A stretch of DNA of 36,016 nucleotides, from NCBI GenBank assembly GCA_018830945.1, contig JAHJRD010000064.1:1-36016 (forward strand), read 5' to 3'. The DNA is from Nanobdellota archaeon (GTDB taxonomy: Archaea; Nanobdellota; Nanobdellia; SCGC-AAA011-G17; GW2011-AR17). The position numbers and the translations under genes were made by a program. This document shows, in pieces, positions 21,517 to 24,875 of this stretch (position 1 is the stretch's first letter; each line of letters opens with the position of its first letter). The notes beneath the pieces were generated by a model, which worked only from the letters and a program-made list of their open reading frames with translations, was not told the origin of the DNA and made no database searches.

Positions 21517-21578
21517 AATCTCACCTCTCATGTTTAATAATGATTATCTTTATATAAAGGTTTCTGCCGGAAAGCCAA

Positions 21579-21651
21579 TGGCTGCATTGCAGCCATACTT
21601 TAGTGGCAAAGCCCCTGGCTTTGCTTGCCCTGAAAACCCTGGTGTGTTTTC
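21579..21651. repeat. Cluster of three hairpins at the island edge
   Basis: Three inverted repeats in 73 nt: TGGCTGCA-T-TGCAGCCA (21579-21595), GCAAAGCC-CCT-GGCTTTGC (21606-21624) and TGAAAAC...GTTTTCA (21631-21651). They lie directly behind the ArdC-like gene, before the promoter of the 77-residue gene. Confidence 0.6.
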
Positions 21652-22408
21652 AGAGTGGAATGGCTTTTATGATTAGCTTTGCGCAATCAGCTATGACTTT
21701 CAAATTATCCCTAATCTTTTCATAGTTTGCATCATACAATGCCAGATAATTGAAACTCTTTGTTTCTATGTTGAACTGCCTTGCTGCCACATAAGCAACA
21801 GCCTCTGCCTGTATCTCTTTTTGCTCTTTTGAAAGTGTTGAATTCTTATGCAGCAAGGCATGCGCTATTTCGTGCAACAAAGTGTTAATCTGCGTGTTAT
21901 TGCTTTTGCTGCTATTAATTGTGATATTGGTGTTTGCTGCATAGCCGTGCAAATCATCCCTTAAACCCCCAAAGCTCACGTTAAACCCCTGTTGCTGGCA
22001 GAAATCCAATAGCTTTTGCAGCAACCCTTCTGTTTCACCTTCTGCTTCAATGTCAATGTCAGGCAGAGGCTTGCCGTCTGTCTGCGATATGTCAAAAACG
22101 CTTACCGGCCTGAAATAAATTATTGCCTCTTCCTTGCCATCTTTAATCTTTTTGCTTTTTGCAGGCGCAAGAATCTTTATCGCCTTGCTTCCTTTAATGA
22201 CATTCCTTTCCAATCGCTTCCATTTATGGAATCCCGCCACCCTTGTTGCATTCGGCATCTGGAGATAGATTAGCAATTGGTTATAAGGCGAATAGTCCCA
22301 GAACCTTGACATTACATCAAGGTATTCTTTGAAGAAATCTGACTTCTTTGCTTCCTCTGTTTCATTTGCAAGCTGCTTTAATGCCTGCTCAACCTCTTTT
22401 GGGTTCAT
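21650..22408 (-). CDS. ArdC-like antirestriction/metallopeptidase protein
   Basis: 252 residues. Residues 1-105 resemble the ArdC N-terminal ssDNA-binding domain (FWDYSPYNQLLIYLQMP, then GFHKWKRLERNVIKGSKAIKIL in two shorter blocks). Residues about 150-250 form a zincin domain with HEIAH (179-183) and a third ligand in the AEAVAY helix (Glu 202). ArdC proteins are carried by mobile elements and protect incoming DNA from restriction. Its start overlaps the DUF1016 gene by 20 nt, so the two are translated together after an AGAGG site. Role in this island is inferred. Confidence 0.7.
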   Translation of the reverse strand: MNPKEVEQALKQLANETEEAKKSDFFKEYLDVMSRFWDYSPYNQLLIYLQMPNATRVAGFHKWKRLERNVIKGSKAIKILAPAKSKKIKDGKEEAIIYFRPVSVFDISQTDGKPLPDIDIEAEGETEGLLQKLLDFCQQQGFNVSFGGLRDDLHGYAANTNITINSSKSNNTQINTLLHEIAHALLHKNSTLSKEQKEIQAEAVAYVAARQFNIETKSFNYLALYDANYEKIRDNLKVIADCAKLIIKAIPL

Positions 22409-23435
22409 CTGAATCCTCTTTTGAAATTTCTATTGCCTTGCAGCAGATTTTTGCTTTCTCAACTAACAGCTTTAATTCATCAGGAGACGGCAAGCTGAGC
22501 ATGTATCTTGATGCAAATATCCTGCTGCTTACGCCTCCGAGAGCATACTTAACTTCAACATTTTCCTTATTACGGGATAAGATTATGCCTATTGGCTCAT
22601 TATCCTCTTCTGAATTAACTTTTGACTTGAAGTAATTGAGATAAAGGTTCATCTGCCCTATATTTGTATGGCTTGCCTCCCCTGCTTTTAGTTCTATCAA
22701 TACATAGCACCTCAGGATTTTGTTATAAAATACCAAATCAGCATAAAACTGCTTTCTGCCGATGCTCATCTTGAACTGCCTTGCCACAAAGCTGAACCCT
22801 TTTCCCAATTCCAGCAGGAACATCTGAAGGTTTTCGATTATTCTCTCTTCAAGCTCTTTCTCAGAATATGGCTCAGGCAGCTTGAGGAATTCAAGCACAT
22901 ACGGGTCTTTTATAATATCCTCTGCTTTCTTCACCTTATGCCCTTCTGAAGCCAATTGGAGGAAGCCGCATTTATTTTTTGCAGCCGGCAGCCTGTAAAA
23001 TAGCTTTGACGCAATTTGCCTTTTTAGCTCTTTCACGCCCCAGTTTTCTTCTTCGCATTGTTTTTCATAAAATCCCCTCTCTTCATTATTGCTTATGCTG
23101 ATTAATTCAGCATAATGGCTCCAACTCAATTTGCCAGACGTCTGGCAAATTGGATATCGCAAATAAAACAAACGCATATATTGCAGATTGCTCCTGCTGA
23201 CGCCACGGCCATAATCCTGCCCTAAATCAAAAGAAATACGCTTGAGCAGGGCTTGCCCATATTTTGCCCTCTTTTTTCCGCCCTGCTCGAATTCAACTAT
23301 CTTCTTGCCTATATTCCAATAGGTTTCAATAATTATAGAATTAAGCATTGAAAATGCCTGTCCTCTCCCTTTTTCCAGCAGCAGCCCTATGCCTGTTACC
23401 AGCAGACTATAGTTTTTTTCTTGCATTGCCTTCAT
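22389..23435 (-). CDS. DUF1016/YhcG-family PD-(D/E)xK nuclease, full length
   Basis: 348 residues, normal for the family. The N-terminal DUF1016_N domain (about 5-140) includes ETYWNIGKKIVEFEQGG, SRSNLQYMRLFY and LSWSHYAEL. The C-terminal nuclease domain has Asp 233 (FYADLVFY) and Glu 248/Lys 250 (LIELKAG), followed by a Gln in GQMNLYLNYF, the PD-(D/E)xK layout. Family members are linked to mobile elements and defence islands, but their biological role is not settled. GGAGGAGTAA precedes the ATG. A perfect palindrome sits inside the codons for residues 94-103. Confidence 0.85.
   Translation of the reverse strand: MKAMQEKNYSLLVTGIGLLLEKGRGQAFSMLNSIIIETYWNIGKKIVEFEQGGKKRAKYGQALLKRISFDLGQDYGRGVSRSNLQYMRLFYLRYPICQTSGKLSWSHYAELISISNNEERGFYEKQCEEENWGVKELKRQIASKLFYRLPAAKNKCGFLQLASEGHKVKKAEDIIKDPYVLEFLKLPEPYSEKELEERIIENLQMFLLELGKGFSFVARQFKMSIGRKQFYADLVFYNKILRCYVLIELKAGEASHTNIGQMNLYLNYFKSKVNSEEDNEPIGIILSRNKENVEVKYALGGVSSRIFASRYMLSLPSPDELKLLVEKAKICCKAIEISKEDSDEPKRG
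23127..23152. repeat. Perfect 26-nt palindrome inside the DUF1016 gene
   Basis: The core is TTGCCAGACGTCTGGCAA, extended by four paired bases on each side. It encodes the ICQTSGKL stretch between YP and SWSH, the same place where the truncated paralogue carries its palindrome array. It shares the CAGAC/GTCTG half-site with array units 1 and 7. Confidence 0.85.
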
Positions 23436-23484: not shown

Positions 23485-24057
23485 TTACGTTAGTTCCATA
23501 ATCAAAATATGATTACTCCAGCTTAGGGAGAAAAGCAATTCTTCAGACACTGTCTGAAGTTTTTGACAGGTAAGCAATTCTACAGCCACCGGTTGTAGTT
23601 TTTGAGGCAAAGGCAATTCTGTAGACGCTGTCTGCAGTTTTAGGGATAATTCTCTAGATGGCATCTGGAGTTTTCTACCAGAAGGCAATTCTACAATCGC
23701 TGATTGTAGTTTTCTGCTTGAAGGCAATTCTCCAACCACTGGTTGGAGTTTTTGAGGTAAGGGCAATTCTACAGACAGTGTCTGTAGAATTGGATATGAT
23801 TCATAGAATTTTTTCATATACCATAGATTTGCCACAGAATACCCCTTAATCCCCGGAAATCTCTGCCTTAAGTCCCTTGATAGCCTTTCAACAACAGCCT
23901 TGCCGTATTCTGATGTTTTGCTTAACTCCTCTCCAATGTTCCAATACGCCTGCAATAGCGCCTTATTTACTTCTGAGAAAGCCCTGAGCTTTGACTGCTC
24001 TATCTGCTTTACCACGGATTCTAATATCTTTGTGTAATTATTCGCTTCTTTTTTCAT
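23485..24057 (-). pseudogene. Truncated DUF1016 gene with palindromic repeat expansion
   Basis: Residues 1-90 match the DUF1016_N domain of the neighbouring intact protein (QAYWNIGEELSKTSEYGKAV, then ANLWYMKKFYESYPI). Residues 91-172 are seven repeats of about 13 residues (KLQxxxxELPLPQ type). The protein then resumes the family sequence as LSWSNHILIMEL and stops. After the TAA the DNA still reads MQEEKNWKKNEF, resembling the intact copy's CEEENWGVKEL, so the end has decayed. The nuclease domain is absent. It may still be translated as a DNA-binding fragment; the start follows the family N-terminus. Confidence 0.75.
23541..23787. repeat. Array of seven covarying 19-nt palindromes
   Basis: Palindromes start at 23541, 23580, 23619, 23652, 23691, 23730 and 23769: period 39 nt, once 33, always a multiple of three. 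Each is an 8-bp stem with a 3-nt loop, e.g. CTTCAGAC-ACT-GTCTGAAG, CTCCAACC-ACT-GGTTGGAG, CTACAATC-GCT-GATTGTAG. Four stems are perfect and three have one G.T pair on the plus strand. The 20-nt linkers are similar (TTTTTGAGGCAAAGGCAATT type). The last unit extends to a 13-bp stem (23764-23792). Confidence 0.92.
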
Positions 24058-24209: not shown

Positions 24210-24347
24210 TTATTCCCCTCGCCAAGCTGGATTCGGGCAAAGCTTATAAAGGAGTAAGCTAAAATACACGTGATAAAAGATGGCTATAACAGGCGCAAAT
24301 CTCGGCTTTGAGGGATAGGCGAAGCCACTCTCACATGGGCATATCAT
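24210..24347 (-). CDS. Possible 45-residue peptide in the island
   Basis: AAAGGAGG lies a few bases before an ATG that opens MICPCESGFAYPSKPRF and runs to TAA at 24210; an in-frame ATG two codons earlier also exists. CPC and a hydrophobic middle are visible. The ribosome site overlaps a hairpin (24335-24353). Weak evidence: it may be a remnant. The rest of the gap 24058-24209 shows no gene. Confidence 0.25.
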   Translation of the reverse strand: MICPCESGFAYPSKPRFAPVIAIFYHVYFSLLLYKLCPNPAWRGE

Positions 24348-24353
24348 GCCCAT
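24335..24353. repeat. Hairpin next to a ribosome-binding site
   Basis: ATGGGCAT-ATC-ATGCCCAT, 8-bp stem with a 3-nt loop: the same size as the units of the DUF1016 array (8 + 3 + 8) but unrelated in sequence. In minus-strand sense it follows AAAGGAGG directly. Confidence 0.6.
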
Positions 24354-24384
24354 CCTCCTTTCCCGCTTAGCTCCCAGAAACACT

Positions 24385-24548: not shown

Positions 24549-24875
24549 TCATCCTCCAAGTATAAAAAAAGCCCCTCCCCCCTCATTGGACTTGAGGGCG
24601 GGATAAGCGTAAGGAGGCGGTAGAGACTTAGGTCTCTGGCCTCCCTGTTCAGGAGGCGGTAGAGACTTAGGTCTCTGGCCTCCCTGTTCAGGAGGGATGT
24701 AAAACCTCTGCCAGCATTGGGACTGCGTCCCGAACTTTCCTTCGCCTCTGCTCGGAAAGCATATAGCTGGCTGGATTTTGCGGCGATACCCCCGTAACGA
24801 TGCAAGTTCCTCTGCCTGGAATTGTGAACCGTGACCATATGTTTTTGGAAATCCAAACAATTCCTGACCAACCAC
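24549..24875 (-). CDS. Doubtful 108-codon frame with tandem repeat
   Basis: Starts at GTG (VVGQELFGFPKTYG) and is open upstream as far as the orphan leader near 24981 without an ATG. It contains a duplicated 13-residue unit (PPPEQGGQRPKSL) produced by DNA hairpins, and ends FFILGG at the next gene's ribosome site. The GC-rich hairpins in more than one open frame suggest structured non-coding DNA rather than a gene. Confidence 0.25.
   Translation of the reverse strand: MVGQELFGFPKTYGHGSQFQAEELASLRGYRRKIQPAICFPSRGEGKFGTQSQCWQRFYIPPEQGGQRPKSLPPPEQGGQRPKSLPPPYAYPALKSNEGGGAFFILGG
24612..24689. repeat. Two tandem 39-bp hairpin repeats
   Basis: Two identical 39-bp units (24612-24650, 24651-24689) with a partial third. 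Each folds as GGAGGC..AGAGAC-TTAG-GTCTCT.GCCTCC, two 6-bp stems around a small internal loop. The 39-nt period equals that of the DUF1016 array 820 nt away. Confidence 0.85.

Follow-up and report, generated by a model that had tools for sequence, protein, structure and literature searches.

Binding sites inside coding regions are familiar from internal operators such as lac O2 and gal OI, and in B. subtilis a parS site lies inside spo0J. Short palindromes near a nuclease-like gene, tolerated in frame, typify the REP/RAYT and the Rickettsia palindromic elements. In ParB and Noc, specificity is set by residues 173 (outer base 1) and 201 (inner base 6) within a two-fold symmetric complex (Jalal et al. 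2020, PMC7383237). The DUF1016/YhcG genes considered here resemble each of these systems in part: with ParB–parS and Noc–NBS they share a predicted DNA-binding fold, a two-fold symmetric site and candidate specificity residues at or near equivalent positions; with lac O2 and gal OI, a site in a coding region; and with the palindromic elements, their nuclease-like neighbour and in-frame tolerance. They differ from ParB–parS and Noc–NBS in that a PD-(D/E)XK nuclease follows, that the site lies within the gene in nearly all members and that site sequences diversify widely; from the internal operators in that, family-wide, the presumed reader's own gene contains the site; and from the REP/RAYT and Rickettsia elements in that the palindromes are not dispersed, hold a fixed codon position and have a predicted ParB-like reader.

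The uncharacterised YhcG/DUF1016 family, present in most genomes of E. coli and shared by many bacteria, archaea and phages, is listed as a candidate for phage defence; the freely accessible papers searched contained no report of a DNA site or palindrome for it. From a family-wide palindrome, the constraint on it at the DNA level, its co-change with protein residues and a fold match, all obtained computationally, we infer with a probability of about 80% that each DUF1016/YhcG protein has, as its cognate double-stranded DNA site, the palindrome around which it is encoded. Briefly, a ParB/Noc-type helix-turn-helix (HTH) domain would bind, as a symmetric dimer, a 17–19-bp site with A/T-rich flanks (AAWW...AATT), which lies within the protein's own frame, in the codons of the loop that joins the recognition helix to the LSWSH helix. 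As the DNA-reading residues change, both half-sites would change with them, so that covariation is seen in the arms and drift in the loop peptide. If this is true, the DNA target of each member could be read from its own gene, the family would supply a ready-made recognition code from residues to bases, and one stretch of DNA would be both the code for a protein and that protein's target, family-wide and in codon register, with their co-evolution apparent in the sequences themselves, an unusual case.

Palindromes in two neighbouring DUF1016 genes

The window (the whole 36,016-nucleotide stretch analysed, from a Nanobdellota archaeon) encodes a plain member of the DUF1016/YhcG family (PF17761 plus PF06250; PADLOC candidate PDC-S02) at 22389–23435 and, beside it, a member with the N-domain only, which hosts the array. 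Their features are:

23485–24057, minus strand: DUF1016_N-only gene, 190 aa, hosting the seven-palindrome array, without nuclease domain (open reading frame and PF17761 only)
23800–23838, minus strand: putative HTH recognition-helix codons of the array gene, SVANLWYMKKFYE (by alignment with the modelled helix 81–93 of the neighbour)
23769–23787, minus strand: palindrome 1 in coding order, CTACAGACA C TGTCTGTAG, perfect; extended arms 23764–23792
23730–23748, minus strand: palindrome 2, CTCCAACCA G TGGTTGGAG, perfect
23691–23709, minus strand: palindrome 3, CTACAATCA G CGATTGTAG, one mismatch, adjoining the centre
23652–23670, minus strand: palindrome 4, CTCCAGATG C CATCTAGAG, one mismatch, followed by the 33-nt step
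23619–23637, minus strand: palindrome 5, CTGCAGACA G CGTCTACAG, two mismatches
23580–23598, minus strand: palindrome 6, CTACAACCG G TGGCTGTAG, two mismatches
23541–23559, minus strand: palindrome 7, CTTCAGACA G TGTCTGAAG, perfect
22389–23435, minus strand: full-length DUF1016 (YhcG) gene with ParB/Noc-like DNA-binding and PD-(D/E)XK nuclease domains (Pfam and fold matches)
23157–23195, minus strand: predicted recognition-helix codons (residues 81–93) of the full-length gene, SRSNLQYMRLFYL (co-change tests and model)
23127–23152, minus strand: palindrome of the full-length gene, CAATTTGCCAGAC GTCTGGCAAATTG, 26 nt, perfect, without the usual 3-nt centre
23118–23120, minus strand: S106 codon (LSW-S-H; residue 111 in L007 numbering), co-changing with inner base k3 and aligning with ParB G201

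The array described in the sequence-only reading is confirmed as seven base-centred 19-nt palindromes with 9-nt arms, in frame within the minus-strand gene 23485–24057, centred at 23550, 23589, 23628, 23661, 23700, 23739 and 23778 (spacings of 39, 39, 33, 39, 39 and 39 nt). Three of them (23550, 23739 and 23778) are perfect over all 9 pairs, the perfect arms of the last reaching 14 nt, and the other four have one or two mismatches each, with 6 of 63 pairs mismatched overall. The sole domain of this gene is DUF1016_N (PF17761, 4.6e-26), and a stop codon comes after LSWSNH. We suggest that the array arose by tandem (39-bp) multiplication of the putative binding site in a copy that lost its nuclease domain. 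A perfect 39-nt tandem repeat of 2.2 copies (24612–24695; AGGAGGCGGTAGAGACTTAGGTCTCTGGCCTCCCTGTTC, a near-palindrome) upstream of the DUF1016 genes has the same period as the array.

The full-length neighbour has both DUF1016 domains (PF17761, 6.4e-40; PF06250, 5.7e-57), and its palindrome occupies a codon position matching that of the array gene's palindromes. By our reckoning, DUF1016 half-sites lie 3 bp further apart than those of parS except in this gene, where, without the central 3 nt, the spacing would equal that of parS. Its own archaeal genome (1.5 Mb in 109 contigs), to which Nanoarchaeota/Woesearchaeota assemblies came nearest in the contig search, has 8 YhcG_C matches. In the full-length paralogs inspected, a palindrome immediately precedes LSW[ST]H, and its stems are quite unlike one another in sequence. 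The end of the full-length gene is overlapped by an anti-restriction-type neighbour (21650–22408) with ArdC N-terminal and M78 peptidase-like domains.

A palindrome at a fixed codon position across the family

We assembled DUF1016 genes from bacterial and archaeal contigs (the archaeal part being denser than the bacterial), viral contigs, DPANN genomes and E. coli; searches of the viral set found no match with the E. coli YhcG query and, with the L131 query, only L131 itself. In 203 genes the W of LSW could be aligned, and the 170 below 85% identity were used. The palindrome is centred at a single offset, 18 nt ahead of the codon for the W in LSWSH, where on average 6.04 of 7 pairs form, with at least 6 in 84% of the genes and all 7 in 61%; other offsets in the same genes average 1.79 of 7, with at least 6 in 0.2%. 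Twenty genes are without a palindrome at this offset, mostly through displacement by linker insertions, and within 150 nt upstream at least 6 of 7 pairs are found in 96% and all 7 in 70% (32% and 0.6% in a control stretch). Synonymous shuffling with each gene's own codon use yields a mean of 3.03 of 7 pairs, and 7 of 7 in only 0.4% against the 61% observed, which bears out the earlier suggestion that the target of selection is the palindrome in the DNA rather than the peptide. Likewise, the palindrome persists over peptides as different as QTLS, NALR, QALP, SALL and QPLV.

The stems hold their pairing while varying in sequence: pairs k2 to k8 are Watson–Crick in 91–97%, with several pair types at every position (at k3, AT 112, GC 16, CG 15 and TA 3; at k6, GC 54, CG 72, TA 9 and AT 7). 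Thus the proposed covariation of the stems holds statistically for all stem pairs family-wide, and the possibility that they decay freely in relatives is contradicted by their retention across Bacteria and Archaea. Pairing drops past k8 and is poor over k9–11, with A–T pairs returning at k12–13 as the AATT flanks. The centre is nearly always of the form C-purine-N-pyrimidine-G, and in 141 of 141 cases the codon preceding it has A or G as its last base, as against about 50% for the same codon boxes elsewhere in the genes; such purine-ending codons produce flexible C–R steps, as in bent duplex DNA. Cognate palindromes also occur in non-coding DNA, downstream of the gene in L032, L096, L102 and E. 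coli, and upstream in L111, L114, L124 and the phage L134. Two degenerate DUF1016 fragments (L042 and L237) still have well-paired palindromes with AATT flanks.

A predicted ParB-like domain co-changing with its presumed site

The model of the N-domain, folded alone, has only ParB, Noc and Spo0J structures as its 22 best PDB matches in Foldseek, several of them DNA-bound, including Noc–NBS (6y93); the probability reaches 0.99 and the TM score (target) 0.58, with weak E-values, 0.18 at best. The full-length model matches through its nuclease part only. In sequence comparisons, 33 of 54 members match Pfam HTH_ParB (best 5.6e-6), with the window protein below the cut-off (E 0.18), and a sequence profile searched against the PDB gave sub-threshold matches only. 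On modest statistics, the DUF1016 N-domain is probably a ParB-like DNA-binding domain. Identity with the ParB partition proteins was rejected, since a ParB-type N-terminal CTP-binding domain had no Pfam match in the proteins scanned, the model having one long helix there.

For the relation between site and reader we used a branch-wise co-change test on a 143-gene tree built without the linker, stratified by branch length and leaving out the palindrome-encoded residues. The inner pair k3 changes together with residue 111, which is the S or T following LSW (z 9.0); the outer pairs k6–k8 do so with residues 86, 90 and 85 (z 5.0, 4.1 and 3.7); and k5 with residues 87 and 84. Residues 91–100 are not among the top columns except for L93 (z 2.7) even though they lie nearer the palindrome, making simple linkage an unlikely cause. 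Independently of this test, AlphaFold predicts a helix-turn-helix whose second helix begins with residues 84–90, and the residues that co-change with the outer stem bases are the first seven of the recognition helix (81–93 in the window's full-length protein). Beyond overall identity, the eight residues (84–90 and 111) correlate with half-site similarity at a partial r of 0.364, the best of 292 control windows reaching 0.276.

The resulting contingency tables read like a recognition code linking residues to bases. At k3, S111 goes with A in 104 of 105 genes, T111 with G, T or C, and G, V or A111 with C (13/13); at k7, R86 goes with G (25/25) and D86 with C (10/10); and D90 goes with G (10/10), N90 with C (24/26). 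Ferruginibacter-like genes with the same helix, GRRNILDM, have GGCAGACA if residue 111 is S and GGCAGGCA if it is T. The non-coding copies obey the same code: k3 is A in L096 (S111) and G in L102 (T111), both in the gene and downstream. In the alignment with Spo0J, ParB G201 is the counterpart of residue 111 and R173 that of residue 85 (the recognition-helix placement is our reading), and since residue 85 goes with k8 and residue 111 with k3, DUF1016 shares with ParB–parS and Noc–NBS a 5-bp spacing between the base of the recognition helix and that of the LSxGH residue. As an alternative for this one position, residue 111 might couple to loop residues 103 and 105 within the protein instead of to the DNA. 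The co-change with what appear to be the protein's own DNA-reading residues fits the earlier proposal that the array may be a binding site of the nuclease family in which it sits.

As for what such binding would accomplish, we tentatively place self-repression through binding inside the own gene at somewhat short of even odds. A possible role that we hold more loosely is that the PD-(D/E)XK domain anchors or cuts at the sites, so that DNA is deleted or inserted there, and some other role is rather unlikely. A broader speculation, doubtful but worth stating, is that these are self-addressed nucleases, in which the gene carries the target of its own nuclease and cutting there causes the gene, along with DNA next to it, to be gained, lost or excluded between cells; the sites flanking the gltF–yhcG segment of E. 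coli K-12 and the one site kept in an empty allele would accord with this.

Symmetric variation, rearrangements and alternative explanations

Same-genus array genes (those of the window, L008, L033, L208 and L213; n=20 units) share the constant bases CTnCAnnCANTGnnTGnAG with flanks AAAA/AATTG. Their variable pairs k3, k4 and k7 are Watson–Crick in 20, 19 and 16 of the 20 units, whereas shuffling the right arms among units leaves only 6.5, 12.1 and 6.2; the stem covariation is thus found within the arrays as well. Elsewhere in the genus arrays have 3–4 units (L033, L208 and L213). A paralog on contig 104 of the same genome (L014, 899–1417) has a four-unit array in which every palindrome is perfect and all stems differ. 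An in-frame TAG stands directly after it (VS*SNH), so that both array genes of this genome end right after their arrays. The greater mismatch of the window array would be expected of a decaying, nuclease-less gene.

The pairs k3, k4 and k7 differ among the units of one array and yet stay paired; with one dimer of one specificity, symmetry at positions not read by the protein should not persist. In E. coli, too, with one yhcG only, k7 varies, which counts against a single-specificity dimer. The symmetric variation in arrays may mean that the units serve different paralogs, that alleles have exchanged units, or that pairing is needed as well.

In E. coli, the K-12 yhcG has three in-gene palindromes, two imperfect and one with 15-nt arms, and further ones lie just downstream of yhcG and between gltD and gltF, such that sites flank the gltF–yhcG segment. 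About 947 of 5426 genomes match 80% or more of an empty gltD–nanQ allele, which retains a single palindrome; in about 715 E. coli genomes yhcG breaks off precisely with the final base of the third palindrome, other DNA following; and in other strains the second palindrome and the third are gone and the frame is shifted. The palindromes are thus frequent endpoints of rearrangement in E. coli. Between L148 and L153, a strain difference in an intergenic palindrome changes both arms. IS1-linked deletions at yhcG (L144 and L145) were set aside as candidates for palindrome-directed events, their endpoints being at various positions. In many E. coli strains a 101-aa 'transposase' (WP_000639208; L143:4497–4802) replaces the nuclease part of yhcG; it looks un-transposase-like by eye and may be misannotated.

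Among explanations other than a duplex site, recognition of a single-stranded DNA hairpin or cruciform, with every position needing to pair and a PD-(D/E)XK domain resembling those of junction resolvases and NucS, survives best, though we regard it as improbable. It would account for symmetry being held even at the variable array positions, and it accords with NucS (2vld) being nearest to the C-domain model, with the linking of YhcG to YraN-like resolvases (PMC1189080) and with several E. coli rearrangements ending at palindromes. However, the co-change matches the two-fold duplex mode of ParB/Noc, including its 5-bp spacing; conserved A/T flanks at k12–13, past the poorly paired k9–11, make no sense for a hairpin; and the k1 bases follow the purine rule rather than a pairing rule. 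In single-site genes, a two-fold symmetric dimer suffices for the arms to change together, and neither of the sources of symmetry in the sequence-only reading is needed, be it a hairpin or the writing of palindromes by a copying process. For arrays, whose copies vary symmetrically, both a DNA hairpin and palindrome-writing are possible.

Far less probable is that the nuclease spreads these palindromes as mobile, REP- or RPE-like elements, its gene offering a tolerant in-frame insertion site. Copies do flank some genes, tandem arrays exist, and the E. coli allele without yhcG keeps its one palindrome between gltD and nanQ. Against this, CAGACANTGTCTG occurs four times in the whole 1.5-Mb genome of the window, always inside DUF1016 genes, with no AATT-flanked copy outside such genes in about 0.55 Mb; a query from the E. 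coli locus matches at most 6 places per genome; and the palindrome keeps one place within the gene from phylum to phylum.

An mRNA hairpin, controlling translation or serving as a substrate that the protein cuts, deserves slightly less credence still, and here the RNA part of the earlier hairpin proposal is not supported. As part of a transcribed coding sequence the palindromes could fold as RNA, but cognate copies also lie upstream or downstream of genes, and the observed mismatches (6 G.U and 23 A.C, against synonymous opportunities of 250:420, the uncorrected count being misleading) do not favour G.U. Finally, generation of the palindromes by a plain protein repeat or codon bias, suggested by the fact that a near-palindrome is able to encode the peptide QTVS/QTLS, has next to no likelihood, being refuted by the synonymous-shuffling test and by the retention of the palindrome under different peptides.

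Apart from the palindromes of the DUF1016 genes, we observed a second kind, of the form ATG-n-CAT, often followed by CCTCCTT and mostly intergenic, in the window (21577–21597 and 24334–24354) and at L245:5900 and L267:1686 and 5160; their stems vary among copies with pairing kept. One of this kind, GGCTGCANTGCAGCC, has 3 copies in the genome of the window and is present in 2 of the 3 congeners searched.
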